Of a stretch of 64,000 bases of DNA, positions 8,301-49,200 are shown in pieces; the first letter of the stretch is position 1; each line of letters starts with the position of its first letter. The stretch spans positions 13,593,701 to 13,657,700 of the forward strand of contig OX387607.1 of assembly GCA_947568835.1 (NCBI GenBank), read 5' to 3'. The notes beneath the pieces were generated by a model that searched no databases, was not told where the DNA came from, and saw only the letters and a list, made by a program, of their open reading frames with translations. Origin of the DNA: Protonemura montana (lineage: Eukaryota > Arthropoda > Insecta > Plecoptera > Nemouridae). The position numbers were made by a program, and so were the translations under genes.

Positions 8301-11300
8301 CTATTATCTATTATTGTCTTCGACTAACTTTGGTGGTCTCGTCTGAGTTTTTTTTTATGTTGTTATCAATCCAATAGTCCAATTGGTTGCTTGAATCAAA
8401 TCAACCAAGGTGACTCTTTAAGGCTATTACGGTCATAGAAAATGTTTTGATTTGGTTTGAGACATTAAAGTTTTCTCCTTCTATATATATATTTATTTTA
8501 ATTAAAAAAAAACAAGTCCGAGGCTTGTTCTGTTTTTGATGCCGCATTGTCTTTCATAATAGATAGCTCCACTCATCCAAGGTGTATTTCAAATTGTGTT
8601 AGCAAAACCTTCTTTTCCATAGATATGAAATAAATCTCACTACCTGTCTCGATTCATCTTCTATTTTCAAATAAACCTCCTGCCTGATCACGTTTTCTCG
8701 CCGCCCAAATTCTCACTGGCTCCTTCTTACAGAACCGAAGAGTATCAGCGCCATGCTGCAGGACTGCATGTCCTGCGAGAATGTCCCGATGGCCGTCAGC
8801 GACCTCCTGCTGGCCTCTTCGACTCATCTCGACCACCACGAGCTCAAGACCAGATGCCAGGTACCAGCCGCAGTTTTACTGAAACGTCAGCTAAATAGCC
8901 GACCTCACCGTTGTCCATACAGATTCATGTTGCAGGACAGCAGTGAGGTCGGTCATTTAATTGGTCATTTAAGGAACCTTATTTAAAGAGAGCAGGCCGA
9001 ACGGTTTAGCGTGTTAGAGACAGTCATTCTTGATGGGATCACCCAAGTTAAGCAACACTGCGCTGGGTCAGGTATTGGATGGGAGACCATCATACGCATG
9101 ACGTTTGGGAGAGAGGTTGGAGGGATGCAAGTTAGTACAGCAACTTCACTCGCCTTGCTTATCAACCTATCGGCAGCATGGATTTGTGAAGGAATTCTGT
9201 TGTTCAAGTTGTACCGTCCTTCGGAAGGGACGTTTTGCCGGTAATTCCCTTGGTGCTCTTCGACAGGAGTAGGCTACGTGCCGGCACCGGGTTTTCAATC
9301 CTCCCTTCTTGGCTAGGTTAGGTTCATAATCATCACCATTATCACCGTATTATCACTGTCACCTTCGTCAAAACAGTGCATCGCCAAATACAAAAATCAA
9401 TTAATTGAGAGAGAAGGCAAATTTTGGAAAAAATTTTGGGGCGAACAGTTATTCCCAGTAGCGAAAATATTGCTCAATATTTACAACATAGTGCAGTTGA
9501 ACGGATTAAAATTCGCTCTTCAATGGTAACTAGCTCGATTCTGTTCGGCCTTGCGCCTTGTACAATAAACGCAACCCGCAGTGCATCAAGCGAACCAGGC
9601 TCCTCCACCACCTCTTGTCCACCTCTCAGGGCCGAGTTCAGACCTCAACAGTTGAACCCATTACTTTCTCTAGGGTCAAACTTCAAACCTTTCACCGATA
9701 TGCGATCGCTGACTGACGATGAAATTTTATATTTTTTGCCGAAATGTGAACTCACTTTGACTGGTTTGCCGTTTATAATGCATAGCCATGAGAAGAATTC
9801 GTGACAAGGATGATCTTGTATTAGCCTGGCCTTGTTTGCTAATTCCTATAGAGGAGCACCGTGGTATCACCGAAGTTAAGCTGGTTTAGGTGCTGGACGG
9901 GTGACCATTCACTGCGTGACCATGACTTATGACCATGTTCTGTTCAGGATAGAGGCTCAAGGGATTGGAGTTAGTACAACAACATAACTACCCTGCTTTT
10001 CACTCCTTCGATGGCATGGATTTGTGGAGGAATCCTGTAATTAGCGTTGTACCGTCCTTCGGATGCGACGTTACTCAGTTGATCCCCTTGGTGTTCTTCG
10101 ACAGGAGTAGGCTACGTGCCGGCACCAGGCTTCCTCTCCTCCCTTCTACGCTATGTTAGGTTAATCATCATCGCCGTCATTATCCACTCATTCACCGACA
10201 CCATTAGACCAGTGCCTCAAAGCTTGATATCAAAGCAGTGTGTCTTTAAACACCAAATCAATCAATCAAACGAGACGGTAATTTGTGCGATGACACATTG
10301 CCCGATTTTATGTCCTCACTTTGTGTTCTAACTTCGAACCGATTGCCAACAGAAGTACGGTGACACGTCATTGTCGGCATCTGCGTCGCTACACATAACA
10401 TACGCCTCGACATCGCCGTTGTTCCAGCGCTTGCGCCCTAGCGTCGGCGACTTTGGCAGGCTGAGCTCCAGCATCCAGTTGCTGCTGACGGGTACGTATC
10501 TGCCAGAGTCAAGACTTTCCAGGACCAGGACCCTTTTATGACCATTCCAGAGCCTGCGAGGGCCTTACCTGGGTTCTAAACGGACTCTTTTTAAGTATAT
10601 GGTGATTCCGGGGCTGTCTCTGTTAAGCTGTCTGGAAACTGAAACTATGTTGGTACCGAATTCAAGAATGAAAATTAAAACTGACCTCCTGTTGAATTAT
10701 GTGTTTGGTTTAACGACGCACTCTCGTGTCAATTGGCAACGGCGCTTTCAGCTTGGAGCATGCCGAGTTGAGATTTGTTAGTGCGATGAAATTTTACGAC
10801 ACCAATGAAATGAATTCATTGGCAAAGAAGGATTGTGAAACACCATGAGCAGGACTTGGCTTAGGTGCATAAAACTGCAGATGAAATTAAATGGGTGCTG
10901 CGTTTTGATGGTCAGAAACATTTAAGTTTACGGTACTAAATTGTCATCGTCTTTTGCGAAAACAAACACCTGACCGAAGTCCTGACCTAAGTTTCGATAT
11001 CCTGGACTTTTTTAACCCGTCCCTATTCCCTTACAGGCGACCTCCAAGGCAACTGGTCGACGGTAATCGAAGCCGTGAAACGCCTTCCCACATCGCATCG
11101 AGAACGCGATCGCCACCCTCTGCTATCCGTGACCGACGGCGAAGGCAACACAGCCCTGCTAATCGCCGGACGCCGTCTACTGAAAGAAGGTGCATTTGCT
11201 CGCGCAGCCCAACTCGGTAACCTTCTGCTACAAGCCGGCGCCGACCCTGATGCCGTCAACGCCGAGGGACGTTCCCTGCTCACATACGCCGTGCACCACG

Positions 11301-11731
11301 TAGACGACGGCGTCGAGCTGACGAGGGCGTTGCTCAACGCTGGAGCGTCGGTCTGGCCGCTGGCGGCTACCGAATGCTCTGCTTTCACTTGGTTTCTACG
11401 CGCTATCATTCGACGAAGACGTCTCGACGAGCGTTGTCAGGCCACTCTGCATCTGTTAAGTGAGGTTATGGGCGAGCAGCCAGTGCGTATGCACGGCCAC
11501 GTCATGAGAACAATGTTCAAGCATGCAAAGTGCTACAAAGTGCTGGGACCTGTGTTCTACCAGCTTAAGATGGCTATGATGGTTTATTGGAGTCAACCGC
11601 AAGGGCTACAGTTTTTGTGCAGAAAGGCCGTGCGATCGGCGATGAGTGTCAAGGATGGGAAGAGTGTGGGGGACCAGCTAAGAAGTTTGGGTCTTCCGAA
11701 TAGCATGCATCAGTATCTGGTTCTTGAATGA
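5386..11731 (+). CDS. Ankyrin-repeat protein with C-terminal SOCS box
   Basis: Four exons join in frame: 5386-5518, 8733-8860, 10353-10491 and 11037-11731, giving 364 residues. Residues 165-241 contain ankyrin-type helices (DGEGNTALLIA..LLLQAGADPDAVNAEGRSLLTYAV..ALLNAGA, shown here in pieces). Residues 322-364 form a SOCS box whose BC-box has the LxxLC spacing (LQFLCRKAV), followed by a GLPNS segment where the Cullin-5 box would sit, and end in YLVLE. SOCS boxes bind Elongin B/C and Cullin-5, so the likely role is substrate receptor of a ubiquitin ligase. The N-terminal 160 residues carry no domain I recognise. The start is the first ATG after a splice acceptor at 5371-5372, so a 5' untranslated exon upstream is likely. 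Which ASB-type subfamily it belongs to is not resolved. Two SINE copies lie in its introns. Confidence 0.85.
5585..5680 (+). repeat. tRNA-like repeat family B, degenerate copy
   Basis: Contains the family signature TTGGTTAGAGCAATACCCGCGACAGG preceded by AACCTCTCAA (given here in parts) and a weakened B-box. It is homologous to 47420-47545 and 63005-63150. Confidence 0.65.
5785..5955 (+). repeat. Dispersed repeat family A, copy 2
   Basis: Shows CTGAGCAAACGAGCCGGC, GGTGCCACCTACTGGCGC and the downstream TAATAATTACGATTC block, as in the copies at 505 and 12085. Its 3' half is more diverged. Confidence 0.65.
9010..9405 (+). mobile_element. 5S-headed SINE, full copy with single head
   Basis: The head carries one 5S-like internal promoter module (AAGTTAAGCAACACTGCG, then GGTATTGGATGGGAGACC). 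The body has ACCGTCCTTCGGAAGGGACG and TACGTGCCGGCACCGGG, and the tail has a CATCACC linker and AACAGTGCATCGCC. It lies in intron 2 of the ankyrin/SOCS gene. Confidence 0.8.
9850..10265 (+). mobile_element. 5S-headed SINE, diverged full copy
   Basis: Same order of blocks as the copy at 9010. The head is diverged (CGAAGTTAAGCTGG, GCTGGACGGGTGACC) while the body and tail are intact, ending in a CACTCATTCACCGACACC block and a T/A-rich terminus. It ends about 90 bp before exon 3 of the host gene. Confidence 0.75.
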
Positions 11732-13875: not shown

Positions 13876-14408
13876 AGCAGAATTTAAACTTAATTCGGGG
13901 GTAAAGTTGGTAGATTAAGTTGGTAAAGTTGGTTAATACCCTAGATTTCAATTTTGATCAGCTAGCTGGGTCCTGTCTACTTTCCAAGTTATTTGAGATC
14001 AGCTGACTGGATCCTCTGCTCTATCCACGTTATTTGAGATCGGCTGGCTTAATCCTATGCTCTATCCAGATTATTTGAGATCAGCTGGCTGGATCCAATG
14101 CTCTATCCAGGTTTTTTGAGATCAGCTGGCTAGATCCAATGCTCTGTCTAGGTTCTTTGAGATCAGCTGACTGAATCCAATGCTTTATCCAGGTTATTTG
14201 AGATCAGCTGGCTGGATCCTATGCTCTATCCAGGTAATTTGAGATCAGCTGGCTAGATCCAATGCTCTATCCAGGTTATTTGAGATCAGCTGGCTGGATC
14301 CTATGCTCTATCCAGGTTATTTGAGATCAGCTGGCTGGATCCTATGCTCTATCCAGGTAATTTGAGATCAGCTGGCTAGATCCAATGCTCTATCCATGTC
14401 ATTTGAGA
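13876..14408 (+). repeat. Left terminal inverted repeat with 41-bp units
   Basis: Unique outer part at 13876-13955, followed by about eleven direct units spaced 41 bp apart (for example unit starts at 14079 and 14120). The unit carries CAGCTG and GGATCC. Confidence 0.85.
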
Positions 14409-14599
14409 TCAGCTGGCTTAATACGGTATTAAACGATATCCCTAGCAATACTATGTGTGTACAGGGCACTTTCGGAAAACCTATAAGAAGACATCGAACA
14501 GGCACTGCATCTGATAACACAAAAGGCAGGGGTGGCGGTCATAATGTTAACTGCAGATCTGGATGTCTGCGCAATGAAGGAATCCCCAGCTAAACATTT

Positions 14600-15567: not shown

Positions 15568-15880
15568 GGACATCCAATACCTGACCCAGTGCAGTGTTGC
15601 TTAACTTTCATCCCTCTAACCCCTCTCCCGAACAGATCTGGTCATGTGTATGATAGTCACCCATCCAATACCTGACCCAGCGCAGTGTTGCTTAACTTTC
15701 ATCCGTCGAACCTCTCTCCCGACCAGAACTGGTTATGTGTATGATGGTCACCCATCAAATACCTGACCCAGCGCAGTGTTGCTTAACTTTCATCCGTCGA
15801 ACCTCTCTCCCGAACAGACCTGGTCATGTGTATGATAGTCACCCATCCAATACCTGACCCAGCCCAGTGCACCGATGTTT
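15568..15880 (-). mobile_element. Tandem 5S-like SINE heads
   Basis: Between three and four direct units of about 91 bp on the minus strand, each holding AAGTTAAGCAACACTG and GGTATTGGATGGGTGAC. The SINE body and tail are absent. Confidence 0.75.
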
Positions 15881-16965: not shown

Positions 16966-17196
16966 AAAACATATAAACAGAACAGTCATAAATATATCGT
17001 GAAGCTAGTGTAAGAAAGTCTTGGTTGATCATTGAAAAGCTTTTAAAATTTGGGTTAGTTACAGGCAGCAAAAATGCATGGAAACTTTAAAATTTAATTC
17101 GTGGCGTTGCCCATGCTTAAATTCAAGAAATCTATTTCATGAATGTGTCTACTAGCTCTCCAGAAAGTTGCTCTCCAGAAAGTTGCTCAAATGACA

Positions 17197-17722
17197 TGGA
17201 TAGAGCATTGGATCTAGCCAGCTGATCTCAAATAACCTGGATAGAGCATAGGATCCAGCCAGCTGATCTCAAATAACCTGGATAGAGAATAGGATCCAGC
17301 CAGCTGATCTCAAATAACCTGGATAGAGCATTGGATCTAGCCAGCTGATCTCAAATAACCTGGATAAAGCATTGGATTCAGTCAGCTGATCTCAAATAAC
17401 CAGGATAGAGCATAGGATCCAGCCAGCTGATCTCAAATAACCTGGATAGAGCATAGGATCCAGCCAGCTGATCTCAAATTACCTGGATAGAGCATAGGAT
17501 CCAGCCAGCTGATCTCAAATAACCTGGATAGAACATAGGATCCAGCCAGCTGATCTCAAATAACCTGGATACAGCATAGGATCCAGCCAGCTGATCTTAA
17601 ATAACTTGGAAAGTGGACAGAATCCAGCTAGCTGATCAAAATTTAAATCAAGGGTATTAACCAACTTTATTACCAACTTAATCTACCAACTTCACCCCCG
17701 AATTAAGTTTAAATTCTTGCTC
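17197..17722 (-). repeat. Right terminal inverted repeat with 41-bp units
   Basis: Inverted counterpart of the left arm, of nearly equal length (526 against 533 bp). It has the same unique outer block and the same divergent innermost unit. Confidence 0.85.
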
Positions 17723-18390: not shown

Positions 18391-18915
18391 GAAGCTCTGT
18401 CAGGCGATCTCAGCATCTCCATGGCTACCAAACGTTGAATCTACCATCGAACCTCCTATGCTAGGCCATGATATACCCGTGGTAACATAAGATAGCAGAA
18501 TTAAGAAGCTCTGTCAGGCGATCTCAGCATCTCCATGGCTACCAAACGTTGAATCTACCATTTAACATCCTACGCTAGGCCATGATATACCCGTGGTAAC
18601 ATAATATAGCAGAATTGAGAAGCTCTGTCAGGCGATCTCAGCATCTCCATGGCTACCAAACGTTGAATCTATCATTGAACCTCCTATGCTAGGCCATGAT
18701 ATACCCGTGGTAACATGAAATAGCAGTATTGAGAAGCTCTGTCAGGCGATCTCAGCATCTCCATGGCTACCAAACGTTGAATCTACCATTGAACATCCTA
18801 CGCTAGGCCATGATATACCCGTGGTAACATAAGATAGCAGAATTGAGAAGCTCTGTCAGGCGATCTCAGCATCTCCATGGCTACCAACCGTTGAATCTAC
18901 CATTCAGAATCTACC
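18391..18915 (+). repeat. 114-bp satellite, left part
   Basis: Direct copies start at 18391, 18505, 18619, 18733 and 18847, exactly 114 bp apart, each beginning GAAGCTCTGTCAGGCGATCT. Units are nearly identical. The fifth is interrupted by a LINE insertion. Confidence 0.95.
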
Positions 18916-19721
18916 AGCACTCTGGACTGGGCGAGACATGTGTCACATGTGGCGGCAAAAGTAGCCAGCGGTTGTTTCCTTGTGAAGAAAATGATGAAAA
19001 TAGTAAACATAAAAGCCGCAAAACTGGTGTACTATACACATGTACAGTCGCATCTACAATACGGGGTAATTTTATGTGGTGACTCGCGGTACGCCGGTAG
19101 ACCATTTAAGCTCCAAAAACGAGCAATCCGCACGCTGGCAGGAGCAAGCTGGGATCCCTGTGCCACAGTGTACTATAAGGACTCGTGTCGACCATTTTTT
19201 AAACAATTTAATGTTCTACCTCTGCCTTGCCTGTACATCTTCTACTGTATAATGTTCGTCGTACAAAATGATTGCAGATCACAAGCAAGTCAGAAGAGTA
19301 GAAGTACCCGGCACACAAATGTATTAACCTTGCCGAGGTATAGACTAAAAAAGGTGACAGAAGGGCCGTTATATGCAGGCGCTAAACTTCTAAACGCCCT
19401 GCCTGAACGCATTAAAGTAATACAGGATCGGTCCTTCAGGACGAGACTCAGAGAGTTTTTAATGGACAACTGCTTCTACAGCGTAAAGGAATTCTATAAT
19501 TTCTAGACTTGTTATTTTAGATGTACCTATTGTAGATGTACTTACTTATTTATTAGTATTTATTATTATTATTTTTCTTTTTTTCTTTTGTATTTTCTTT
19601 CTATTTGTAAATGTTTATCTTTGTAAATCTTTGTAAATGTAACACACCATGAACATCATGACTGTCTATATATCCCTAGGGACAAAAACCGACAATAAAT
19701 TATTATTATTATTATTATTAT
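18913..19721 (+). mobile_element. 5'-truncated LINE inserted in the satellite
   Basis: One open frame begins TLDWARHVSHVAAKVASGC, continues through a YTHVQSHLQYGVILCG block, LQKRAIRTLAGA, KDSCRPFFKQFNVLPLPC and ALPERIK, and stops at 19506 after FYSVKEFYNF. These are the conserved C-terminal motifs of Jockey/CR1-type ORF2. A 3' untranslated part follows, ending in a run of ATT triplets. The 5' truncation and short tandem 3' tail are typical of LINE insertion. The remaining reading frame is uninterrupted, suggesting a fairly recent insertion. Confidence 0.85.
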
Positions 19722-21539: not shown

Positions 21540-22450
21540 CATAGGAAAGATTCCTAGTAATTTCAGACCAATTTTGACAGACTTTTCCTGGCCGCACCGT
21601 TGAAGTTAGAATTTTAGAAATCTAGTACATTGTAGACAAAGAATTGAACTTTGTTCGACCAAGTTTTGGTCTTTTGTCTACAACATGCTCGTTTATTATT
21701 TTTCTTAATTCAAATATGGGGCCAAGAAGCGTCTGCTCAGTTTAGTATGTTTCTTGACGTGTTCACTCCAATTCGCGACTTTGTTCTCCCTGAAATTCAC
21801 ACATCGCCGATAAGCGTGAGCCAACATGTGCGACTGCAATTTGTTGACAGGTTGCAATCAAGATAATTAAAATTGATTCAAAATTTTGTAAACTTGCTGC
21901 ATTAAGAAACAGACTTGACGCTGGGATGGACTAAATTCCGCAAATGTCACTTAAACTTAGATTGAAGCTTGTTGGTGATTTATTTGGCTAGACTAACTCA
22001 AATTGATAAGTTTAAATAGAGAAATAATCAATCAGGTATCTTATTGTAATCCTCTAGAACGTTTGCCACTAAGCATTCTCTCGGAAAGCAGGTTACAATG
22101 AGTGGAGCATTCACCCATAGAAATTGTATCACCCCTTGACGTCGTTTTTACTCAAGCAAAGTTTCAGTCACATAAACAAAGTAAAAAAACTGCAAGGATC
22201 TTGCCCCTTAAAATAGGGTCGCAGGTAACGTGATTAGTTTTAGCAATTTACCAGCTTTGATAAAGGAGTTAATTTATCGATGGTACCAGCGTAATCAGGT
22301 GACAATTACCGTTACCACCTGTAGCGCTGTGACTCTGACTAGCTATAAAGCCAATGATCGTACCGTAAACTGTAAAATATCCTTCAATGTTAGTGACATA
22401 TTTTTTTCATTTATGTTATACATTAATGAATAACCAGTTCTTTTCCAAAG
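21540..22450. other. Spacer without recognised features
   Basis: AT-rich sequence between the minisatellite and the SINE. Short ORFs at 21651-21866 and 22230-22433 resemble nothing I know. Confidence 0.5.
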
Positions 22451-22454
22451 AGTG

Positions 22455-23065
22455 TTGGAAACACCGGCGCTCATCAGATCACCGGAGTTAAGCAACACCG
22501 TGCTGGGTCAGGTATTGGATGGGTGACCGTCATACACATGACCAGTTCTGTTTGGGAGAGAGGCTAGTGGGATGAAAGTTAAGCAACAATGCGCTGGGTC
22601 AGGTATTGGATGGGAGACCATCATTCACATGACCAGATCTGTTCGGGAGAGAGGTAGGAGGGATGAAAGTTAAGCAACACTGCGCTGGGTCAGGTATTGG
22701 ATGGGTGACCATCAAACACATGACCAGTTCTGTTTGTCAGAGATATTGGAGGGATAAAAGTTATAGTTAAGCAACTTCATTCGCCTTGCTTATCAACCTC
22801 TCGACAGCATGGATTTGTGAAGGAATCCTGTTGTCCGCGTTGTACCGTCCTTCGGAAGGTACGTTAAGCCAGTGGTCCCCTTGGTGCTCTTCGACAGGAG
22901 TAGGCTACGTGCCGGCACCGGGTTTCCTCTCCTACCTTCTAGACTAAGTTAGGTTCATCATCATCCTCATAGTCATCATCATCCACTCATTCACCGACGC
23001 CATTAGACCAGTGCCGCATGACCAGATGCCAAAACATTGCGTCGTTAAACACAATAATCGATCAA
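22455..23065 (+). mobile_element. 5S-headed SINE with three head units
   Basis: AGTTAAGCAACA occurs at 22496, 22577 and 22668, so there are three head modules at 81- and 91-bp spacing, each with GGTATTGGATGGG(T/A)GACC. The body (ACCGTCCTTCGGAAGGTACG, TACGTGCCGGCACCGGG), CATCATC linker and terminal TGCGTCGTTAAACAC are complete. This is the best full-length copy in the window. Confidence 0.85.
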
Positions 23066-23365: not shown

Positions 23366-26300
23366 ATGGCAGCTTGGGACTTCAGACTGGCTGGGAAGGT
23401 GAGATCACTTTCCGAGACAACAAGCTTGGAAAACCATTAAAAAATCTCCGTCTAGTGACGTAGTTACAAATGAGCAGTTAATTAAAAATGTTTGTGCGAA
23501 GAACTCATCCGTTAATATCAGGTCTCTGACTTCCTCTTTTTTAGCAAAATTATGCGGCGATTTATGGCTCTGATATGCTTTCGTCTTTGACGTCGTAACT
23601 TAAGACGGTGAATGACGTACGTGATGTTTAGATTCCTCGCAAGCAAGAAAGAAGTGTTGTTAATTACCAATTAACATATGAACCTCCAATCAGAAAGACT
23701 CTAGCTAGCACCAAACCAAACAAATCTAGGTTATGCCATGGGTTATACCTACGCGCGAATTTTTGACACTTGTTCAGACAGTCTCTGAATCGGCCATTTC
23801 ATGTGTTCTTCGACTTTGACTTTGACTTTTGAGTCAAGTTTTGACTTTGTATCCATGTGTTCATGTGTGCCTCAACGACAAACGTGCCAATTGTCCGAAA
23901 TAATGGCGATCAAGTAAACAAGACCACGAGTACACAAGACTAAGCAATCGCGGAGTCTTGATCTTGACGATTTGCTTGGTAGATAACGGGAGCGGAAATC
24001 GTAATTTGGCTAGAAGTTAAAGTTACATGTGTATGTATTTGCGCCAAATTAAGTCACCGAAACCAAAAAAAAACAAGACCAATTGATAAAATCTCATCGC
24101 TTCGATTCATTTTCTATTCACACAAATTGTGTCGACTAACACCTAAGTAACACCTAAGTAACACCTAGTAATGCACACCTTGAGAGAGGAGAGCTTATGA
24201 AAATATCATCCGGTGACGAAAACTAAAACTGTGTAAACCTCTATGCAGAACCAGAAAGCGTATCACCCAATAAAATATAGCCCTACTATTTGCTTCACGT
24301 TTTGCAGGTGGTTCTACTGGGCGTCGCTTGTCTGCTGTTGGTGGGTGTGGGCGACGCCGACGCCGACGCCAGGCGCCGGGCTGACGATGAAGTACGCGAC
24401 GGAGCCCTAGTGCGCTCTCCGAGGTACTACACGGGGTACTGACTCACTATAATGGCCAAGGGGTGTCAGGGTTGAACGTCTAACCATTGTTTTCACACAG
24501 AAATTGTGGTTTGGGGCTTATCCAACATTCTTCAGAGGGTTGTAGTGCCTCAATCTTATTTTTCTGGGGAACCAAGGGGAAAAATTTGTTTTTTAAATTC
24601 CTTATTTGGGGTGGGTGTAAACTGGTTCATTAACTGAAAACATCATTTTAGTGCAAATTTTCGTGGAAAATCCAAAAAAAAAAAATTAACTGCATAGGGA
24701 CTATACTGTAAACTGTATGTACCTACTAATAAGGGAGGTTTTTCAAAATTTTCGACTTTTGTATTTTGGTATTTTTATTAGATTGAACAAATTTGGGATC
24801 CACAGCTGCTACGATTTTCAGCTTCAGAAAAATAGATTTGAGATGAAAACAATCATATACTTTTGACGTTCCGACCGCCACGTACGTTCCACCCCACCAC
24901 GCGTTAAGTTTGGACTGATGACGACATCGCGACACATTCTCCGGCTATAGCGTCCATGCCAAGCCAGTGCTTGTGTATCGATGACGACATCGCGACACAT
25001 TCTCAGGCTATAGCGTCCATGCCAAGCCAGTGCTTGTGTATCGATGACGACATCGCGACACATTCTCCGGCTATAGCGCCCATGCCAAGCCAGTGCTTGT
25101 GTATCGATGACGACATCGCGACACATTTTCCAGCTATAGCATCCATGCCAAGCCAGTGCTTATGTATCGATAACGACATCGCGACACATTCTCCGGCTAT
25201 AGCGTCCATGCCAAGCCAGTGCTTGTGTATCGATGACAACATCGCGACACATTCTCCGGCTATAGCGTCCATGCCAAGCCAGTGCTTGTGTATCGATGAC
25301 GACATCGCGACACATTCTCCGGCTATAGCGTCCATGCCAAGCCAGTGCTTGTGTATCGATGACAACATCGCGACACATTCTCCGGCTATAGCGTCCATGC
25401 TAAGCCAGTGCTTGTGTATCTATGACGACATCGCGACACATTCTCCAGCTATAGCGTCCATGCCAAGCAGTGCTTGTGTATCTATGACGACATCGCGACA
25501 CATTCTCCGGCTATAGCGTCCATGCCAAGGCAGTGCTTGTGTATCGATGACGATATCAGTACACATTCAACGTGCAGGAGGGGAAAGGTGCGGGTTGCTC
25601 AAAACGAGCATACCGTTGATTGTTTTTGTCTAAAATCTTATTTTCCTGATGCTGAAGGGTGGAAAAACGTGTTGTGTGTCCCGAAGAAAATCATTGTAGA
25701 TGGCTTAGGGGAGGTCCAGAAATGTAGTTAATCCGCGTTAAGTCTTGCGGTTCTCGTTTGGGATTGAGGGTGCTTGGTCAGGATGGTACCGCGGAGGGAA
25801 GGGTGCAACGGATAAGTTCGTTCTCACTGGCTGGGTGTTGGTCGGATGTGTATGAGTGACATGCACGTCTTTTGAATCGTGGTTTACGTGAGAATGATTC
25901 GTACTTTCAAAAATGCTGTTACATTTTTGACCGCATGTATTTTAATTGTTGTCGCAGGAATCTTGGGCCAAGAATTAAATTCGCGACGAATCACTTCGCA
26001 TATGGTTGAGGTTGTGGCCTTAGTGATCTGATTGATCTTATGCATTGAGAATTTCCGCAATCTGGAAAGTGAACAGAAATTTTAATGAATCGTTGGAAAA
26101 ACCTTCTGCAGCCAAGACTGAAAAAGCTGCACTAAGATCGAGTGACCTTGGAACTAGTAGCTCAGTTATTTGAAACGTATCTGGATTGTAGAGACGAATT
26201 TTATTTGTGTCTCCGATTACGCGATTACAAACGGTGTAATTAATTAACTACATCAAGTAGCATCATCTCATGTCCTCCATATTTTAGGTATAAGGTCAAC

Positions 26301-27719
26301 TTGTCAATCTTTCAACAACGTATCGAGCCCACCTTCAGAGTAAGATGTTAGGATTAGGTCTCTCTCAGATTTCCATCAACTTCCCACCCATGTGGGAGCA
26401 TCTTCGAAGAGGTTCAATTATCTCTGTCAGATATCTATCAATTTGATCCAGAGGTGACAGGTGTTCTTCGATAACAACATGTAACACTCACCTCGGTGTT
26501 CGCATGTTTATGGTTTGCTACGCTCATACGAAATCCACTAGATTTTCGTTCAAAATCACGTGATTCGAAGAATTTCAGCTTTGTCTTTTCGTTGTTGCTT
26601 TTGTCGAAACGAGAGCTTATCAAAATTAGATATTACAGCCCGTCATCATACTCTGTAAGTAGAGTATCATAAACAGTTGCTATCTCGCTGAATGCCGCAT
26701 ATCAATCAATTACTTGTTATCAAACTTGTTTGAGTTGAGTGAACCAATCCGGTGCTAAATGGTGGACCTAAAACGGACCTGTTTTCCAGTTTTCCAGTTT
26801 TCTGGTGCCTTAAAGGTCAATAAACCCGTAACAATTTCAGCCATCCACCCAATCCAGCGTGAAACGGCATTCTTTATCTCAATTTCAAAATACCACAAAG
26901 CGACTTTTGTTTAAGGTCATTCCAAAATTAGTTTTCTAGCATCCGTTCATTGATTTCGATTTAAGAAGAAATTCAAGTTCGCATGACCCAATAGCCCTGA
27001 TATAAATAGAAACAACAACAAAAACACAGACATAAAAACGTGAAGATCATTTCAACGATCCACGACTTTTAGAGGATTAATTTTTTTTTCTTTCCAACTT
27101 CAGCGTGGCTTCATCAAAAGTAATCCGACCAACAGCTGTGCGACGCACAAACGCAACGAGAGTCCAAACCGCCAACGCTCCCGCCAAACCCGTCACGACC
27201 AAACTTCCGTCACGAGGTCAAAAACAACCGCAGTCCAACAACAACAAGGGTCAAGAAAGCATGATCTACCCTGCTGAAGACTCACCTCTTTACGTGACCT
27301 CCACGGAACAACCGGAATCAATCACTCCACCAGAACTCTCACCGACGCCATCACTAGGAAGCAAGATCCAATCCATAGCCGCCAACAATTTGCGTCCATT
27401 TGCAAATTTGTTTCAAGTCGCCTCAACATCGACTACAATTACGGGGCGTCCCTTGAATAACCGTCGCACGGCGACAGCTGCCCTTTCTTTGGTGGTCAGC
27501 ACTGTTACTGCTTATTCTATTACTACTGTTGGTCAGGTGGTTTTCCAGCCGACTTTTGTGACCCAAACGTTGACTGTTAGAAGCACTTTCACTACCATTG
27601 TGGTGGTACCTACCGTTTCCACCTCCACCAACGTGATAATCACCGTTGCTTTCAGTACAGTGGTGGTGCCGATCTTTTCGACCACTATCATCGTTATTCC
27701 AAGAACTATTCGAGTCTGA
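23366..27719 (+). CDS. Secreted Thr/Val-rich repeat protein 1
   Basis: Three exons: 23366-23398, 24308-24423 and 27104-27719, with introns in phases 0 and 2, giving 254 residues. The first exon encodes MAAWDFRLAGK. The second continues directly into a hydrophobic VVLLGVACLLLVGVG core ending in DADADA, a good signal peptide split by an intron. Residues 50-175 are basic, Pro/Thr/Asn-rich and low-complexity. Residues 178-254 are almost entirely Thr, Val, Ser and Ile, with repeating units such as FTTIVVVP and FSTVVVPIFSTT and few charges, which suggests alternating beta strands. I recognise no named domain and no cysteine framework, so function is unknown; an extracellular or cuticle-like structural role is a guess. 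The neighbour at 30561 is a paralogue. A 63-bp minisatellite occupies intron 2. Confidence 0.75.
23399..24307 (+). other. Intron 1 of secreted protein gene 1
   Basis: Begins gtgaga and ends tttgcag, phase 0. It contains local direct repeats of CTTTGACTTTGACTTTT near 23815 and three copies of ACACCTAAGTA near 24140, and nothing else recognised. Confidence 0.6.
24424..27103 (+). other. Intron 2 of secreted protein gene 1
   Basis: Begins gtacta and ends aacttcag, phase 2. Apart from the 63-bp minisatellite it is AT-rich with no recognised exon. Confidence 0.6.
24917..25565 (+). repeat. 63-bp minisatellite, about 10 copies
   Basis: The unit starts GATGACGACATCGCGACACA and ends AGTGCTTGTGTATC. 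Its length, 63, is a multiple of three, so several frames on both strands stay open as 21-residue repeats (for example MPSQCLCIDDDIATHSPAIA). A one-base deletion near 25466 shifts these frames without any other change, arguing against coding. The same unit forms an array in opposite orientation at 55051-55446. Confidence 0.95.
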
Positions 27720-27947
27720 GCGTACAATTGTCACTTGTATTTCGAAACTATATAAACACTACTAATTACAATGCATTACTTATTAAGTAGCTTCACAATC
27801 ATATATTTATATTAATTAATTTAAAACTTTTTATTGAATTCTGACCACGTGTGTTAATTTAAAGTAACGGTTAGAGGCATTATTTATTTTATTTATTCTT
27901 TTTTCTAACATGTGTTGTATTTATTTATAGTGGATTTTTTATAAACA

Positions 27948-27953
27948 AATAAA
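27948..27953 (+). promoter_or_regulatory. Poly(A) signal candidate of secreted protein gene 1
   Basis: AATAAA, 229 bp after the stop codon of secreted protein 1, in AT-rich 3' sequence. No better hexamer lies closer. Confidence 0.5.
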
Positions 27954-30560
27954 ACGAGAAATGTTAAATCATTTTACTATGATGTTTCTTTAATTTGAGG
28001 TTGTTTGTATTGGGCAAGAACCGCTTCTTCGTCGTGTTCATCAAGTCCCATTATTTCGAAGAATGCTCCCATAACAAGTTGCCATAACCAGTTTGATATT
28101 GATGTTAGCCACTCAATTATCAATTAAATCGTCTTCGTCTAAGTTCAAGGAGAAAAAATAACAACATTTCTGTGCGGTAAAACGTCTTTACTGCACCCAG
28201 AGGTGCGTATACTCGATTGCACCACACACCGAGCGGTTTACCAAACACTTTGAGTAGTTTTTTGGACCACAAATAGCCTCAAATATACTTTAAACGTGTC
28301 ACGTTTTTCATAACCAATTTACCATAACTCACAATAAACATTAGGCCCTTTGCTTCAGGTAATGTGACCCTTTATCCTATAGCCACACATCCTTTCACAA
28401 TCAAACTGTATGCAAGGTTCTGGGCAATTTATGACATCAAGTACGGCATGGGCAATCTTTTCTAACCCGCGGGGGATGTTTACTGTTTTAGTCCCAACAT
28501 TTTTTGGTTCCTCGTTGGACAATTCAGTGTGATGAAATCAAGCATGACATGTAATTCTTGCGTTCAACGCTGGGAATGTTGGAAGACTTTGAAGATTGGA
28601 GATTGAAATTTTTGGTGGCCCTGGGCCTGGTGAGCGAAATTCGTCTGTGTTTCCAGCTATTGAAGCCAGGAAGGCTGAAAGATTTCCAAAGGAATCTATA
28701 AGTTAATTCACTCAGGTTATCTTCGTTTCAGAGTTAGACATTTAACTGTACTTTTTTTATCGGTTTCAAGTTTCCGCATTTCGGGATACAAAGAAAATTT
28801 GTGTTTATAAAAAAGATTCTCAAAAAAACAAACAATATAATTTTTTTTTAGACTTCCATTCAGTGTTCTATTGGTCTACGAACCGAACCGTCACCGTGAC
28901 TTAGTGACTTTTTTCATTTTAAATCGAGTAAATTCTAGCCCTATCGTTAATAAATACAGCCAACAAAATGTATCAAGTGCCATTGACGCGGTCAGAGGTC
29001 TCTAAAAACGGCACCACCAATTTTGGCTCCCAGAAACTAAACCTGATTTCCTAACCTCATGCCAAGAGGCGCGCTTCTTTCCAAGTGTCTTGAGAAATTG
29101 TTTCTAAATTACCTATCACTCATGGTCGTAAAGATCATCTCGATAATATTTTATCGCTTAATCATCCTTAATAATCTTTCCATTTAAGCGAGTTCGATCG
29201 TGTTGTTGACCAGCACACCATTACGACATATACCTATTACTAGACTTAGATCCACAAAGTAACGGATTTTCCCGTCAGCAGGCTCAATACCTTCAAATAT
29301 TATAAATGTGTAAAGTGCATTGTTTATTATTATTTCGCCGGGAGCTGGTCTCTAGATTGCATGTTTTTATGCTACTCCTATGCTCTCCCTTGCAATTGGT
29401 GTTGGACCTGATGGTAGGCGGTATTCACTAAGGTGTAATTACGAGATAAACGTACGTCCGATGAACAAGCCACCGTGAACACGCTCCGCATTATTTTTCA
29501 TTACAGTGTAAATTGAGATGAATATTCAAGTAGGAGATAATTTTTTTAATTTGAGTGTAGGTACCTTAATTTACCAACTACTTGACTAAACAATGTTTAA
29601 TAAGCATGATGCCAAAAATATACGGGTTTCTTTGATATGAGTCCAATGTATCTACTTCTTGCCTCGGTAGTATAAAATGCATGCTAAATTTTGCATTACC
29701 TAAATATTGTCACGTACCATTTATTTTATGAGGCGTCTAAGTACCGCAATTTAAAGAAAACACATTTATCATTAGTGGTTTATGCTTATAGTCTTTAGAA
29801 AGTTTCCAAAGAAATACGACTTTATTACCTAATACTTGGAATGACACTATTAAAAAATGAAATAAAAAAGCTCAGATTAATATTAATGAACACTCAATTC
29901 ATATCTACCATATATATATTAATATGTATACTCAAATCAATAGGACAAACACAATTCACCATATTTTCATAAAAAAAAATCAGCAATAGCAAAGCCCAGT
30001 GCATTTCAAAGCTAATTTTTCCAAAACAACCTCGAACTAGAAAAACCTATCACTGATATATAAAATAATGAGCAGCCTGAAAAATGTCGACAGTTGTCTT
30101 GTTATTTTGTATAAACAATTACAATAAATGTAGGTGCAATGTTTAAATGTGAGAAGTCATACTCTGAACAGATTATTGATGTGTTCCCCTCTTAATATCA
30201 GTGATTATAAACTTTTGTTTGCCGGTAGCATGACTATGTTTTAATATAATTGCCTATGACCAAGCAAATTCCACGGACAATTAAAAAAAAAATACATCCG
30301 AGTCCTGAGTTCCTCGCAGATGTGTAACACTTTAGCTACAAAGAGATACCAAAAACTCACAATTTCTTCGATGGGTCGCAATAAACTATAGCTAAACTAC
30401 ACTACTAGCAAAACTATAATCATGCGTGAGCTCAGAAAACTAGGTTACACTTAGAAGGGGGGGGGGGGGGGGGCCAAACCTGTTCTAATCGCCGAAAGAT
30501 GGGAAAAAGTAATAAGAAGGCAGAGCCCGCTGGTCGACTGTCAGTTGTGTGTGAGGCAAT
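27954..30560. other. Spacer between the two secreted-protein genes
   Basis: No complete gene recognised. A short exon-like ORF at 28576 encodes MLEDFEDWRLKFLVALGL followed by gtgagc (see findings). A run of 17 G lies at 30457-30473. Confidence 0.5.
30457..30473 (+). repeat. Run of 17 guanines
   Basis: Uninterrupted G17 about 90 bp upstream of the start codon of secreted protein gene 2. It can form G-quadruplex structures on the plus strand. Its exact length should be regarded as uncertain because homopolymers are error-prone. Confidence 0.9.
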
Positions 30561-32859
30561 ATGAGTGGAGGCTGGGTGAGTTTTGCGTTTATTAATTTGC
30601 TGGTCGTGAAACAATTAATCACAATCACACAAGAAGCCGAATTGTTTAATTTTATAAAAGATTATCTACATGTCCAATTTAATACGACGTGTTAAATTAT
30701 ACGGTCATAATAGTTTCTAGCGTGTGTTCTGTGACGGTATTCGCAGTTGTGTCGTTATATTTTGGTACGGTTCTGCGTTTAAAAATGCTGTTGGTGATTT
30801 CAACGCTGGGAGTGTCAAATTTCTGATAAACTGTGTTGCAAAATGTTTTTAATACTGCGGTGAAGTCTTCTGGAATTTTATATGTTACACTAATGAAAAA
30901 TACGGAATCTTTCTGTCCTCGAAATTTTAGCCTTAAGCTTATAATTATTAGGAACAGTTGGTTCTTCCCACTAGGATCTATTCTTTGGAGATTCGTCATT
31001 CTAATCTAATACGCAAAATTCTTCTCAAAAATTATAATTCCAAGGAGGTCAATCTGTTTAAGTAACTTCCGCGACAGGCAGAGATCGGGGTTAGAATTTT
31101 TTAGAAGTTATTAGTGCCCTAATAACAAAATACTTAGCGCTTTGCAGGCGTTTGCAATGTATATCATAGCCTGAAGCTTTTTTATTAAATTGCGTATGGA
31201 GTAGCAGCGATTAAATGCGGCTAATTAGATCGATGTTGTGTTCACAGGTAGCTTGTCTGGGCCTTGTGCTCTTGGCACATTATTGCTGTTCAAATGCAGA
31301 TCACATACAACCATCAAAACCCGCCATCTCATCCGAAAGAGCTGTGTAAGAAAGGTGTTCTTACTCCTTATCAAGTTCAAATAGCGTTTTCATCAATTGA
31401 AACTTAAAAGGTATTTTAATTTGCAGCACGCCGACGCTCCCGACGAAAACAGGGGAACCATCAAAACGGGGAAGAAATATCAACCCTTTCATGCCTTTCT
31501 TCAGCCATGACCCTAACGAACCTGACTTTTCCCGAAACATGCCCCCTGTCAACCCTTCCGCCTTTCTCAACTTCAACCCGTTTATGTACATGTTGATGAC
31601 GATGATGATGAACCCACAGAACCCGTTTAATATGGATATCCTACGGGGAGCCGGTATGGCCCCTATACCAAGGACAGTGATCACCACTTCTGTGGTAAGC
31701 AAAACGTTGCATCGTTTGACCATGGTCTGGCCTTGAATTAAAGGTCTAATTGTTTTGATTGGTGGCGTGGACCGTTTTCTTTCAATCCAGAAAATCCCAT
31801 TCATGGGAATGAGATGCATGTAACATATATATATATATAGGAATGGGATACACGGTATAAGTACATGGAATATACGAGAATCGGATACATGGAGTTCATG
31901 GATGCATGGAATTTGCTGGATTTATATAAAAACGTCTGCGTTGTTTGTGCGTTGTGTTGTTTGTTTTTTCGTCTGTGTTTTGTTGTAAATATGTCCGACC
32001 TACAAAAATGTGTATTTTTTTAAAATATGTCCGACAGCTTAAGAGTTTTTGACATCAAAATCGGACTTACAACTGAAAAACTACGTGCTACCACAGATTG
32101 TGCTACCTAAGCATGGGTAAAATCTTCGATGTAAAATGCAACAAATTTAACTGTGTTTTTGAATGGTGCGTAAAACGACGTGGATTCCTGACGTTGCGTG
32201 ATTTAAACCCTGCTACTTGAGACGTACTTGTGACTCTTCTACGATAGCAAACAAATAAAAACAAATGATTCTATTGTTTCAAAACCCATAGTTTCTCACC
32301 GAGTATAACATAAGCTTTTTAAAAGCGAAAAAAGCCAAAAACAGGTATAGCTGGAGTTCTTTTCTTGGCGTTCGGCCATTTTTTTCTGGCGGTTCTTATA
32401 CTGAATAGATTATATTCAATACATTATATTTCAAAAGAAAATTATGTCCCTTAACAAAAATTATAGATTTCCATAATGCTCCCTAGTGGAAACGCCAGAA
32501 CAACCAAAAAACCATGCAAACAAATGTTTTTTTTTTCTTGTTAGATCCAATCCACAATAACCGAGACGATAACGCAGACTTCAATCACGCCATTCATCGA
32601 AACAACCACGATCGTCATCCCATCAACATCGACGTCAACGATCGTGGTCCCTGTTTACACGACAGAAATGTTTGTTGTGACGGCGACATCGACCTCGACT
32701 ATTGTCGTACCGGAATACAGCACGACCACCATCCTAGCATACACCGGCAACCAGAATTATCAGCAAAATTTAAGGGGAGCTCCTGAGGATGAATATTTCG
32801 AGGAAAGGCGAAACAATCGGCAAGCTAGAGTCCCGAATAATTTCAAGACAAAGAACTGA
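30561..32859 (+). CDS. Secreted Thr/Val-rich repeat protein 2
   Basis: Four exons: 30561-30575, 31248-31345, 31427-31694 and 32545-32859, 231 residues, introns in phases 0, 2 and 0. The five-codon first exon MSGGW joins VACLGLVLLAHYCCSNAD, a short signal peptide, exactly as in the neighbouring gene at 23366. Residues 38-127 include a Phe/Met/Asn/Pro-rich stretch (NPFMYMLMTMMMNPQNPF). The last exon starts with about 68 residues of Thr/Ser/Val/Ile repeats. A duplicated unit of about 20 residues, TSTSTIVVPVYTTEMFV and TSTSTIVVPEYSTTTIL, is clear, and the exon ends in a charged Asn/Gln/Arg-rich tail. Shared intron phases, signal-peptide layout and the TTIVIP/TIVVP motif make it a tandem paralogue of the upstream gene. 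Function is unknown. Confidence 0.75.
31055..31175 (+). repeat. tRNA-like repeat family B, diverged copy
   Basis: Has CCGCGACAGGCAGAGATCGG, a decayed B-box, then GAAGTTATTAGTGCCCTAAT and AAAATACTTAGCGCTTTGCA, the tail order of the copy at 47420. It lies in intron 1 of secreted protein gene 2. Confidence 0.65.
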
Positions 32860-42713: not shown

Positions 42714-45572
42714 TTAGAACGCCATACGATGGGGGTATTGGCTAGAGTGGAGGCCAAACATGTTCTTAAGGTACGCGTAGAAAGTGTACCTTTCCTTCTT
42801 ATGGAACAACTTTCGGATGACATCCGAGCACAGCTTGTCGACAATCTTCTGGTCAGCCTTTCGCTGTGCCGAAGGGGTGTACTTGGTTTTCTTCTTGTTG
42901 AAGATGTCGCCATCTTCCTTCTTCGGCCGCTTTTCACGGATCCTCTTGAAATACTTGTCGTCGATGTTCGCTGGGATCTCGATGCTGGAAATATCGATCT
43001 AAAAAAAACAAGAAAACAGAATAAGCGACGTTTCCTAATTTCTACTATCAGTGAGGATTAGAGATTAGAAAGCAGTGGTACTTAACAAGGCAAACATGGC
43101 TATGGCTGGCCAAATCATATCAGGCGATTGTTGCCAACAGGGTACATTTGCTAAAGACAAAAACCATTTAAAATTGACAAAATGAGTCTCAACTATTAGC
43201 AAACTCCTTAAGAGAACTGAAGCAAACAGTGCAAAGATGACGCAAATTGCCAATTGCGAATGATTTAGAGAATGGTCCTACTGCTGCCTTAACGCAGACA
43301 ATGCAGCGGCGGAAACATTATAAGTTATAACTCTCTACACACGTAGGAACTAGTTATTTTAATTTGCCAAGTTACATTTTCTTTCATCGGTCTTTGTTCA
43401 TATATAGGCACCCTAATTAACTTGAAGATAATTTAAATTGAAGAAATAAAATGAATTTTTAGATATTTTTCGTTGGTTGAGTAAGCGTTTAAAATAGATC
43501 CTACAACCACTACAAAATCTTTGGAGAGCCTCTAGCTTGTGTAGCGTGAAATTATTCTTTTAACAAGATTAAATTTACTTAGTAATAAACACTTAGTGTT
43601 CGTTCTAAATACACACTGGCGGTGAATCAGCGATACTGTGAAAATGGCACATGGAGATGTTTGTTTGCAAAGAGATGAGAAATGTTATTTGTCAGAACCT
43701 AAAATTGTGAAGTTAACTGTTCCAGTTATTCCTCAAGGTATATGCAGTTTTGGCAGAAGCATACCAAAACAGCACAGTAACATGCAAAAGAGACATTCTG
43801 CTGTTTATAAAACCAGGACACATTAATGAATGGCTTTCAAGTTTAATTGTAGAGGAAGTTGGTACTTAAATCTTGACAAATCTCTTGTGGCAAGGGAAAT
43901 CTGCACTAAAATAAATCTGCTTAAAAACTGGTTTATTGTGATAATGAAGGAAAGAAAGGCCAAATGTAACTTAACAGAAAAACTTGAAGTCCCCTGACGC
44001 AGTTTTCGAAAAAATACTGCATTTATTGAGAATTGTAATGTTTACTTCTCGAAAAGTAACAACTCGCTAAAATATTTCAACACTGAATTCGCGAAAATTT
44101 TCCACAAGTACACTAAGCAACGCCAATTTTTTCTCTCCAATTCGTCGCGGCTCTCTTCCCCTTTTTCACCACAGCAAATTCTTTAGGGACCCTATTTGAA
44201 TTTAAAAACTGTCGAGACAAATAAAAAGAATAGGTACCTTGGTCTTGGTGGCGATGACAAAACTCTGCTGCACACGTCGTAGTGGGCACCTGTTAACCTT
44301 CATCGGACCGTTGACAAGCAAAAGACCGCTGGCAAGCTGTTTCAGGAAGATGACTCGCTTTCCCTTGTGTGCACCATTCAGCAGGATGACAATGGTGCCA
44401 GGGGTGAGTGACTTGCGAAGGGAGCGTTTGTGCTCGGAGAACTTCTTCTTCGAGGGTCGATTAGTCATCCTTGAAAAAAAATAGCTTTCATTAGTAAAAG
44501 ATATTCAAGCTAATGTCAGGTGTTTTTAACTGAAATTCTGTATTGGAACTAACTTTTCCGCAGTCGGGAGATGAGGGCGCCTCTTCTTCAGGTACACAAT
44601 CCTGGTACCTCCATTTTTCTCTCCTCCGATGGGCTTCACAACAGTCTTCGGTTTCTTGGGGAAGACCTGTAAAAAATAAATAAAACTAGTTAACCTCCAG
44701 TAATTAATATAAATCATCAAAATTGCGTTTGCTTTATCGCTCAGCGAAGCTGAGGGCTAGGACCATAGAGAGTAATGATTCTGTTATTTTTAAGTCGTAA
44801 CTCTTGCGAGCTGCTGCCAACTACCTTAAAGTCTTGCAGCCCATATAAAAGATTAGAAAATACAGGGTCCGTGCTGCACAGCCACAGATTACTTCTGCAA
44901 TGTTTGAACCTTGCACAGGACAACTACATAAATATATGCACTTGACTTTCACAACTAAACCATAATAACTTATTTATTTGCTAGAAATAAGACGATGCTT
45001 GATATCGAATCTATTGAAAAGCAGATATAGCACTCAAAAAGTTTCCTACCTACCCAGGGATTGAGGCATATTTGGAATGCAGCACATGGCAAACTAGTGT
45101 GGAATATTTACTACTGCTAGCATAGGTACAAACAGACAGCAGGACAACTGGATAGTTGCAAACATTGCTCTTTCTAGAAGCGCTAGACTTTTAACAAAAT
45201 CCTTTGCTAGGAATGGGACTAAATCCGATGCTCATATTGCAGTTACAGCTACTCGAGAAGGTTCCTACCCAGTGGTTATACTTCCATTAACATAAAATTA
45301 TGGCAGAACAAAGTTATCAAGAAATTAAATAGACCATGCAAATTAAATGCACTTACAGGCTTCTTCTTCTTCCTGAAGGCGAATTTATACAGAGCCGTCT
45401 TGTTTTTCTTCGAATTGTACAAGTAAACTCCATTTCCAAGCTTGAAGTTCTTACGCCTGTATATGGTTTTCTTTTCGCCTGGTACCTTAGGTACTTTCGC
45501 CTTCTTGACTTTTCCCCCTGCTAACTTTTCCGGCTTAGGCTTTGCCTTAGCGGGAGCTTTGGGAACAACCAT
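42714..45572 (-). CDS. RPL6: 60S ribosomal protein L6 (eL6)
   Basis: Four coding exons: 45572-45357, 44666-44554, 44469-44238 and 42998-42714, 281 residues, within the usual animal size. The basic N-terminus ([17 protein letters not shown]) precedes conserved [19 protein letters not shown]. These are followed by [55 protein letters not shown] and a C-terminal [12 protein letters not shown], ending in PHRMAF. It is a structural protein of the large ribosomal subunit in the cytosol. The ATG sits directly at the acceptor of the first intron, so the leader is a separate non-coding exon near 45818-45845. The gene is head-to-head with TPC1 and followed on the same strand by SANBR. Confidence 0.97.
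42999..44237 (-). other. Last intron of RPL6 (1.24 kb)
   Basis: Ribosomal-protein introns often host snoRNAs. I looked on the host strand for C/D and H/ACA boxes and found no convincing candidate. Otherwise AT-rich without recognised repeats. Confidence 0.5.
44667..45356 (-). other. Intron 2 of RPL6 (690 bp)
   Basis: On the host strand, near 44920-44860, a stem formed by GTCCTGTGC and GCACGGAC is visible, but a full H/ACA layout is not. No other feature recognised. Confidence 0.4.
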
Positions 45573-45817
45573 CTGGAAGAAAAATACAAAATCAAGACTT
45601 CACCAAAACAAATATCCACGTAAGGCCTGCAAGGCGCCAGACACGCCGCATATGAGTACGGCTTTAATAGAAAGAATCTCAAATATTTGACAATATAATT
45701 GCAGCCATTTTCACAATAAATATATAGCAAATTAATTAAACGGCACGTATTGCTTAATTAGTTTAGGATTATCGAGGATTCCACTGATAATTTACGAAAT
45801 TTTACTCCGAATCTCAC

Positions 45818-46279: not shown

Positions 46280-49200
46280 ATGGCTTCCTCCAGAGACGGA
46301 GGATCCGCAGCAGATGGATATTCTCGATTTAATAATGATACGGGGAATGGAGACGAATCTTACCAGACAAATAGCTTAAGTAAGTGTTTATACGTAAAAT
46401 TTCAAAACTAAACTTCATTTCGTTCTCATTTAAAGTGTGTGTTTGTCTAATTTACACTGTCAGAAATCCTGTGGTTAACCTCACTCTTAGTTGTCAAATA
46501 TTAGTGATATGATAGCATTGATTACAAAAATGTCGACAGGATTAAAGGTTAAAATTTACAATGCCTTTACGTGTAGATAAGATAAGGACTCTAGTTTGTA
46601 ACAATGTTCGAGAAGAACACTTATCAACCTGTTTCTGTCGGTAGTAATTTCTTTCTTCTTACCCCAGAACACACACAACGCACTCGTCAGACTAGTGAAG
46701 ACTTCCCTAATGAGATAGGAAGCACTTCGAGTCTCAATCGAGAGTTGTCGGAGAACTCGGTTGAGCTCATGAGACCCGGTGACACTTCACACATTGATGC
46801 CGAACAACATTGGGAGATGAACTTCCACGAGGCTGCCATATTCCTCGAGGTATATTGTTACTCCTTGGATTGATACATGCTAATGTTTTACTTACTTACC
46901 ACTGCTTCAATGTTTACTTTAAATTTTCCAAAACAACTAAAATGTACATTTTTTTCTCATTTGAAACCACAATTGATGAGTTTATGAACTCATTGTATAA
47001 ATGACATGAACACTCCGTTACAGGAAGGGCAGAACAATGAAAAATTTGATTCGCATCCTCACAACTGTGAAGCATTACCAGCATACCTACTGGTTCACAA
47101 CAATTGGTACTATGGACTTGATTTGGTTACGTCATTACTCTTACTTGGCCTTGCCATTGTTGAAGAGCCAGCATTTCCACTTTTTAAAGTAAGTTCAAAA
47201 TTTGAATAGGTACCGATGGGTACCTAAGTACATTTGGGAATTGCAACTTTTTAACTGGAATAAATATTTTATTTATGATGATCTTGTCTAGGGGTATCAT
47301 TTGATGCCACTAAATTTATAATAAAAAAAACGGTAAAAGCAGTTCAAGAACGGTTTATAACTGTCATTCTCATCAAATACGCTTAAATCGTCTCAAAAAG
47401 TATGTGTCCAAGTACCTCAATGGGTTTAGAGCAACATCCGCGATAGGTGAAGATCGGGGTTCGAGTCCCCGTTTGGTCATCAATTTTTGAGACAGTAGTA
47501 GAGGTCATAATAATAAAATACTCCGCGCTTTTCGTTTTATGCAATACAATTTAAATAAGATTTGAAAGGTTTATAACCTAGTTTTCTTCTAGTTGCCAGT
47601 TGGAGCTCACAGCTCCATCGAACTACTTTGCCTCTCAATAATTGGAGTGGAACTCCTACTTAAATTGAGATGGATAGGATGGAAAACTATTCTGCAACAC
47701 AAACGCACCATGCTAAAGGTAAAGAGAGCTGCAAAAATTTCAATCAAAGTTGCCAAATTCGAGCCACATTTAAGATCCTCATTCCTACGTATCGTACTGT
47801 TTCAGTGCATGACACTAGCTATCATGCTAGTCGAGGCTGTGACAGTCCTCGTGCGGCAGTCGTCTCACTTCCGAGCGACGCGAGCTCTTCGCCCGATATT
47901 CCTCGTGGACACGAGACATTGCGGTGGCGTGAGACGCTTCATTCGCCAGATCTTGCAATCGATGCCGCCCATTCTAGACATGCTCGGACTCCTGCTTTTC
48001 TTCATCTGCATCTTCGCTTTGCTTGGCTTCTTCTTGTTTTCTGGCGACCCTCGCGATCAGTATTTTACGACGCTTATGGATAGTTTCGTCAGCATGTTTG
48101 TGCTGCTCACCACTGCAAAGTAAGTCATGTTATTTTGTCAGGATTTGATTACATTTCAAATAACCTCTAAATAATGAAAACTTAGGACTGAAGCATTCTT
48201 CAAATGAATGTTCTCAAATTGGTTTTGATTGATTTGTTGCATTTAACGACACACTTTTTTGGCAATGGGCCCTGCGGCACTAGTCTGATAGCTTTGGAAT
48301 GTTCGCAAAAACGTAATCTAGTATCAAAAAAATAAGAATCATGTGTCCTATGCAAATATCTGAGAGTAAAAGTGGCTGCAGCTGGTGACTATGCCTCCCG
48401 TTCCAGCTTCCCTGACGTGATGATGCCTGCGTATGCTCGGTCGAAATGGTACAGCGTATTTTTCGTCTCGTACCTGTGCATTGTACTCTACGTTTTGATG
48501 AACTTGGTTAGTATATTTTCAATGCTTGGTTTTCTTTTTTTGTGGTGAAGAAGGAAAGAGAGATGGATCACAATAACTGGATAATAAAATTAGCTTCGTT
48601 TGAGAAATTTCTAGATTTTTGAGAATTTTAACATTTTGGCAAGTTGCAAGTGATTTTACGACTGATTTTTTAGTGTTCTGCTGGTATCAGGTGAAGGGGT
48701 ATGGATGGGTAATGTGAAAATGAGAGGGGGTAAGTTGGTGCCTATGGGATAAAATATGTGAGTCAGCCTTCATTTGTTCCATTGTTAGCATATAAAAAAA
48801 TTGCCTATTTCATCTCATTTCATTAAATTCCACTGAAAAAAATGCATAATCACTAATCACCCTCTAGGAGAGTTGTTGAGAAATTAAATTAAACTTTGGC
48901 TGGGATCAGCGTGTATTTTTATGCTTGGTTCGTTAGAAAAAAGGATCGTCAGTTAATATTAGTGAAGTAAAATCAGATGACGTGGACTTAGATTGAGTTT
49001 ACGATGAAATAAAGGTGCGATATTTTCCAAACAGTTTTCTCGGTGTCCAACAGATGCTAGCCGTGGTCTACGAAACCTTCACCCGGATTGAGCGCGACAA
49101 GTTTCGTAAACTGCTGCTGCACAAACGCAAGGCGTGCCAACACGCCTTCCGTCTCCTCGTTTCCAGACAGAGTCCAACGCAGATGCGCTTCAAACATTTC

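Follow-up and report, generated by a model that had tools for sequence, protein, structure and literature searches.

Within a 64,000-nucleotide stretch of the genome of the plecopteran Protonemura montana (C5:13593701-13657700, in the following the window), two neighbouring genes raise the question of which kind of protein is formed by a hydrophobic N-terminus, a low-complexity middle and a C-terminus consisting almost exclusively of Thr, Ser, Val and Ile. From the gene architecture and composition of these two genes, here designated A and B, and of two relatives, C and D, found on other contigs of the same assembly, we favour, at a probability of about 0.45, the reading that the four encode a small insect family of secreted structural proteins of the cuticle or another apical extracellular matrix.

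Gene structures and the C-terminal repeat

Gene A encodes 254 aa in three predicted exons spanning 23366-27719 and gene B 231 aa in four predicted exons spanning 30561-32859, both with a frame open to the stop codon (window positions):

23366..23398, plus strand: gene A exon 1, MAAWDFRLAGK, 33 nt, ends in phase 0; predicted from the sequence
24308..24423, plus strand: gene A exon 2, hydrophobic signal sequence by eye, ends in phase 2
27104..27719, plus strand: gene A exon 3, stop TGA; encodes a low-complexity, basic middle followed by the ten-residue repeats of the C-terminus
27486..27716, plus strand: gene A repeat block, some seven units of ten residues, last residues PRTIRV
30561..30575, plus strand: gene B exon 1, MSGGW, 15 nt, ends in phase 0; predicted from the sequence
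31248..31345, plus strand: gene B exon 2, signal sequence by eye, ends in phase 2
31427..31694, plus strand: gene B exon 3, encodes a middle rich in Met, Asn, Pro and Phe; ends in phase 0
32545..32859, plus strand: gene B exon 4, ten-residue repeats and polar tail, stop TGA

Judged from the sequence alone, the exons and intron phases of the original prediction hold, with open frames and GT-AG borders in all five introns, among which the donor after exon 2 of gene A (gtacta) is weak. Gene A has two introns, in phases 0 and 2, and gene B three, in phases 0, 2 and 0, the last of which had gone unmentioned. This third intron, present also in C and D, is missing from gene A, where it was either lost or never present. 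Secretion, likewise proposed earlier, is suggested by N-termini resembling signal peptides by eye. Scanning 400 bases on each side, an initiator-like TCAGT was found 20 bases 5' of the ATG of gene B, with GATAAA variants only past its stop, and an AATAAA 229 bases past the stop of gene A, upstream of which TCATT is present and TCAGT absent. Intron 2 of gene A harbors 10.4 copies of a 63-bp minisatellite (24917..25568, plus strand), outside the protein; the same minisatellite recurs 30 kb downstream (55056-55429), by eye in opposite orientation.

As originally described, the C-termini are made up nearly completely of Thr, Ser, Val and Ile, amounting to 71% of 78 aa in A and 76% of 71 aa in B. 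The beta-branched residues Thr, Val and Ile account for 60% in A, 63% in B and 51-63% across the blocks of all four members, with 0 or 1 Gly apiece. The unit of the family can be written as approximately P-[TS]-x-S-T-[ST]-T-[IV]-V-V. When periods from 5 to 30 were compared with shuffled sequences, ten ranked top and twenty second in each of the four members, and the repeat of 18-20 residues initially proposed is therefore rejected, this length corresponding to about two real units. Identities summed at lags 10, 20, 30 and 40 reach 52 in A, 61 in B, 46 in C and 55 in D, sums attained by 2, 0, 0 and 0 of 10000 shuffles, respectively. Counted over the last five full units per member (20 units in total), position 5 is Thr in 17 and position 7 in 15 units, position 1 is Pro in 12, and positions 9 and 10 are Val in 12 each. 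The window contains two 50-codon stretches in which Thr, Val, Ile and Ser make up at least 68% and Thr is found at least 10 times, compared to none in 30 resampled windows of similar trinucleotide make-up; a six-frame scan of the window for sequence rich in these residues returned the two known stretches and no further copies.

Elsewhere in the window, three 91-bp tandem arrays (5029-5282, 15571-15869 and 22486-22763) have a common unit by eye and may derive from 5S rRNA, since Rfam matches the latter at 22444-22557 with a score of 38.9, barely above the cut-off of 38. An exon at 10991-11731 bears ankyrin repeats and a SOCS-box, and an open frame at 18895-19506, with no Pfam match at E 0.001, looks by eye like the end of a non-LTR reverse transcriptase. 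Exons of ribosomal protein L6 are located on the minus strand at 44202-45599; the two exons as query gave 81 PDB matches, and among the best 60 of these, two start at residue 9 or 12 and 58 at residue 66 or later, the former two chains presumably being from Drosophila. Two exons with Ion_trans Pfam matches (47593-52271) resemble a two-pore channel.

Relatives elsewhere in the assembly

When the four repeat blocks and a typed consensus were searched against the assembly (258,480,905 bases, 34 contigs), at least four family loci emerged, these counts being lower bounds: A and B, gene C on contig C12 and gene D on contig C4. A fifth row, obtained with the consensus query at E 1.42, contains an internal stop and was not counted. 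A hand-made scrambled query of nearly the same composition, differing from the consensus by one residue in each of F, S, T and V, yielded 0 first-look candidates, an empty answer which by itself proves nothing. The predicted exons of C and D are the following:

C12:12708121-12708218, 12707155-12707404, 12705948-12706184, minus strand: gene C, predicted exons
C4:23644766-23644866, 23639816-23640509, 23638322-23638579, minus strand: gene D, predicted exons

About 500 bases upstream of these exons of gene C lies its candidate first exon, MATTVKFLVK, the sole candidate by a simple rule in 5.8 kb, and for gene D the one beginning with MSVG was chosen from two candidates. With these candidate first exons, the exon lengths give intron phases of 0/2/0 for C and D, like in B, and the predicted pI values are 10.67 for A, 6.83 for B, 10.67 for C and 6.28 for D. 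The middle of D carries four N-x-S/T sites and its tail is His-rich. Used as genome queries, the N-terminal part of D matched only D's own two exons and the middle exon of B only itself. A 41-bp minisatellite at 13956-14418 and 17186-17637 of the window is by eye the same one that fills intron 3 of gene C. In the same assembly, contig C34 (15,885 bases) reads as an insect-type mitochondrion with long table-5 frames including COX1 and the order I-Q-M before ND2 (tRNA-Gln found, tRNA-Met as motif, tRNA-Ile by eye).

For the repeat blocks, the genome search gave identities of 56% over 55 and 54% over 69 positions between A and C, and of 46% over 72 and 52% over 60 positions between B and D; in the ungapped register of 67 positions, the values are 40% and 51%, respectively. 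The C-termini of A and B align with a local score of 112, compared to 65.7 ± 7.9 for shuffled sequences, 0 of 2000 of which reached 112, and with a BLASTP E of 5e-7 in a single pairwise comparison. Along with the shared intron phases, this alignment supports the duplication origin assumed before. In all six pairs, the local score lies above all 2000 shuffles. When shifts of 0, 10, 20, 30 and 40 residues both ways were compared, the shifted comparisons spanning fewer positions, the substitution score was best in register in five of six pairs, the exception being C-D with 53 versus 67 at -30 and 62 at -10. Judged by percent identity, the in-register alignment comes out on top in three of six pairs, whereas shifted comparisons are superior for A-D (24% versus 34% at -30), B-C (37% versus 39% at +20) and C-D (27% versus 34% at -30).

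Differences at first, second and third codon positions number 25, 9 and 41 over 56 codons in A-C and 19, 19 and 40 over 60 codons in B-D; this third-position excess of change is what a constrained reading frame would show. Between A and C, the middles resemble each other (score 54, reached by 11 of 2000 shuffles), and those of B-D and A-B do not rise above shuffles, with their scores being reached by 1137 and 670 of 2000, respectively. By these comparisons, the four predicted genes form a small family that divides into two branches, A/C and B/D. Since identities within the branches exceed those between the branches, the tandem duplication leading to A and B is probably older than the splits within the two, a dating read from identities. 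The closest relatives of A and B being located on other contigs, the tandem pair therefore looks like the older duplication.

Proposed role and competing explanations

Pfam searches returned 0 families, both for A and B (E up to 10) and for C and D lacking their first exons (E up to 1), and PDB gave 0 matches for A and B. One PDB profile row, an enterovirus 2C chain at E 0.27, and one row for the four blocks in the bacterial and archaeal library NCBIfam, matching TraE at E 2.4, were taken as chance. Hence, no named family credibly matched the predicted proteins among those checked in Pfam, PDB and NCBIfam, in agreement with the original prediction, which could name none for this architecture. 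Among the papers that word searches listed, titles and abstract openings held no description of this family, and those obtained with motif strings are unrelated by title. AlphaFold2, run on the last exon of gene B with a four-row alignment, gave a model with pLDDT 40.1, pTM 0.14 and two strands of three residues each, a prediction that neither supports nor contradicts a beta fold. The beta-rich or fibrous nature suggested originally is plausible from the content of Thr, Val and Ile given above, while the stacked beta structure expected from prediction did not come out as a usable model.

The matrix-protein reading is proposed because of the N-terminus, the tiny first exon, the low complexity and the beta-branched repeats, and placement in the cuticle because tiny first exons split the predicted signal peptide. 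Such first exons are common in cuticular protein genes, though not proof of membership. Counting against the favoured reading are the 0 Pfam families for all four, the low-confidence AlphaFold2 model, the C-D blocks scoring better out of register, the 0-1 Gly per block and the poorly conserved middles of B-D and A-B. In the mechanism envisaged, the N-terminal hydrophobic stretch of A-D would serve as signal peptide, each ten-residue unit would contribute one beta strand and a proline turn, and the repeat block would fold or self-assemble into a stacked beta sheet. The low-complexity middles, which vary among the members, may serve for spacing or binding. After secretion, the proteins would be deposited in the cuticle or a different apical extracellular matrix, where basic A/C proteins and near-neutral B/D proteins may be combined into a single material. 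Rather improbable in its full form is the bolder version, an unnamed insect extracellular family that builds a Thr/Val decapeptide beta material by co-assembly of basic A/C and near-neutral B/D proteins. If true, a Thr/Val decapeptide class would be added to the insect structural proteins, with a repeat simple enough to be synthesised and assayed for assembly. At present, A-D stand as an uncharacterised gene family of well-defined anatomy, the intron layout of which offers a thread to relatives where low-complexity sequence fails.

Mucin-like proteins of the gut lining or elsewhere, with O-glycosylated Ser/Thr-rich stretches forming part of a luminal coat, would account for the Thr and Ser content (33/71 in the B block, 27/78 in the A block) and for the N-x-S/T sites in the middle of D. 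Val and Ile, however, make up 28/78 residues in A and 21/71 in B and recur in a strict period, unlike in an open mucin stretch, and A-D are free of peritrophin or any other Pfam domain, so that this explanation is regarded as unlikely, even with a Ser- and Thr-rich secreted gut protein known from Rhodnius (PMC3886914) and a Val-rich secreted midgut family from Lepidoptera (PMC3843731). The beta-branched content of the four blocks (51-63%) would also fit a silk, egg coat or adhesive, in which beta blocks form a fibre or glue from gland or ovary, and the His-rich tail of D would suit a cross-linked or metal-bound material. Silks typically carry long repeat arrays, in contrast to just about seven repeats per member here. 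Caddisfly silk glands do make the Ala- and Thr-rich AT24 of unknown function, which is, however, called nonrepetitive (PMC11092239), and an origin of the family as silk, coat or glue appears unlikely.

With the gapless register scoring best in five of six pairs, the copy number seems fixed, like in a folded domain, and the repeat block might thus be a small beta domain with a binding instead of a building role, ice binding being an extreme case. We consider this distinctly unlikely: AlphaFold2 did not provide a fold (pLDDT 40.1), a regular Thr-x-Thr face is by eye not kept across the units, and PDB is without match for A and B. The poorly conserved middles would also be compatible with chance low-complexity open frames or decayed genes, yet open frames at four loci, shared intron phases and the excess of third-position changes make this highly improbable.

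Comparison with known systems

The favoured reading of secreted cuticle or matrix proteins invites comparison with the cuticular families. CPR proteins are secreted and of low complexity outside the R&R domain, traits in which the predicted A-D proteins would be similar. A-D differ from them in lacking the R&R consensus (PF00379) chitin-binding domain, in line with 0 Pfam families, and Pfam domains of Tweedle, CPAP and others, which we take to be the other cuticular families having a model, were likewise found 0 times in A-D. In gene structure, A and B resemble CPR: among the Anopheles CPR genes with introns, 86% are described as having the signal peptide split by an intron, the first exons measuring 3-36 nt, and genes A and B possess first exons of 33 and 15 nt and an intron in the predicted signal-peptide region, a feature frequent in CPR and not defining it (PMC2259329).

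A review on cuticular proteins describes these as Gly-, Pro- and Tyr-rich, unlike the Thr/Val-rich blocks of A-D, and names none of the 13 groups in its table for threonine (PMC12426002). In the same review, the CPLC groups (CPLCG, CPLCA, CPLCP and CPLCW) are low-complexity cuticular proteins, each named for the residue that marks its conserved region, this being Gly, Ala, Pro or Trp and in none of the four Thr (PMC12426002). The blocks of A-D differ in composition from this description, with 0-1 Gly and 51-63% Thr, Val and Ile. Threonine is mentioned there once, for the Ser/Thr-rich P-F repeat of Dumpy, an extracellular insect matrix protein that has Pro-rich repeats as well and, in contrast to A-D with 0 Pfam families, is composed of EGF-DPY-EGF units, a transmembrane stretch and a ZP domain (PMC12426002). 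The lepidopteran Vmp proteins, a small secreted family with 19-31% Val, have repeats described as Gly-rich and Ala/Pro/Val-rich (PMC3843731), a description that differs from the repeats of A-D; richness in Val and, by prediction, secretion are common to both.
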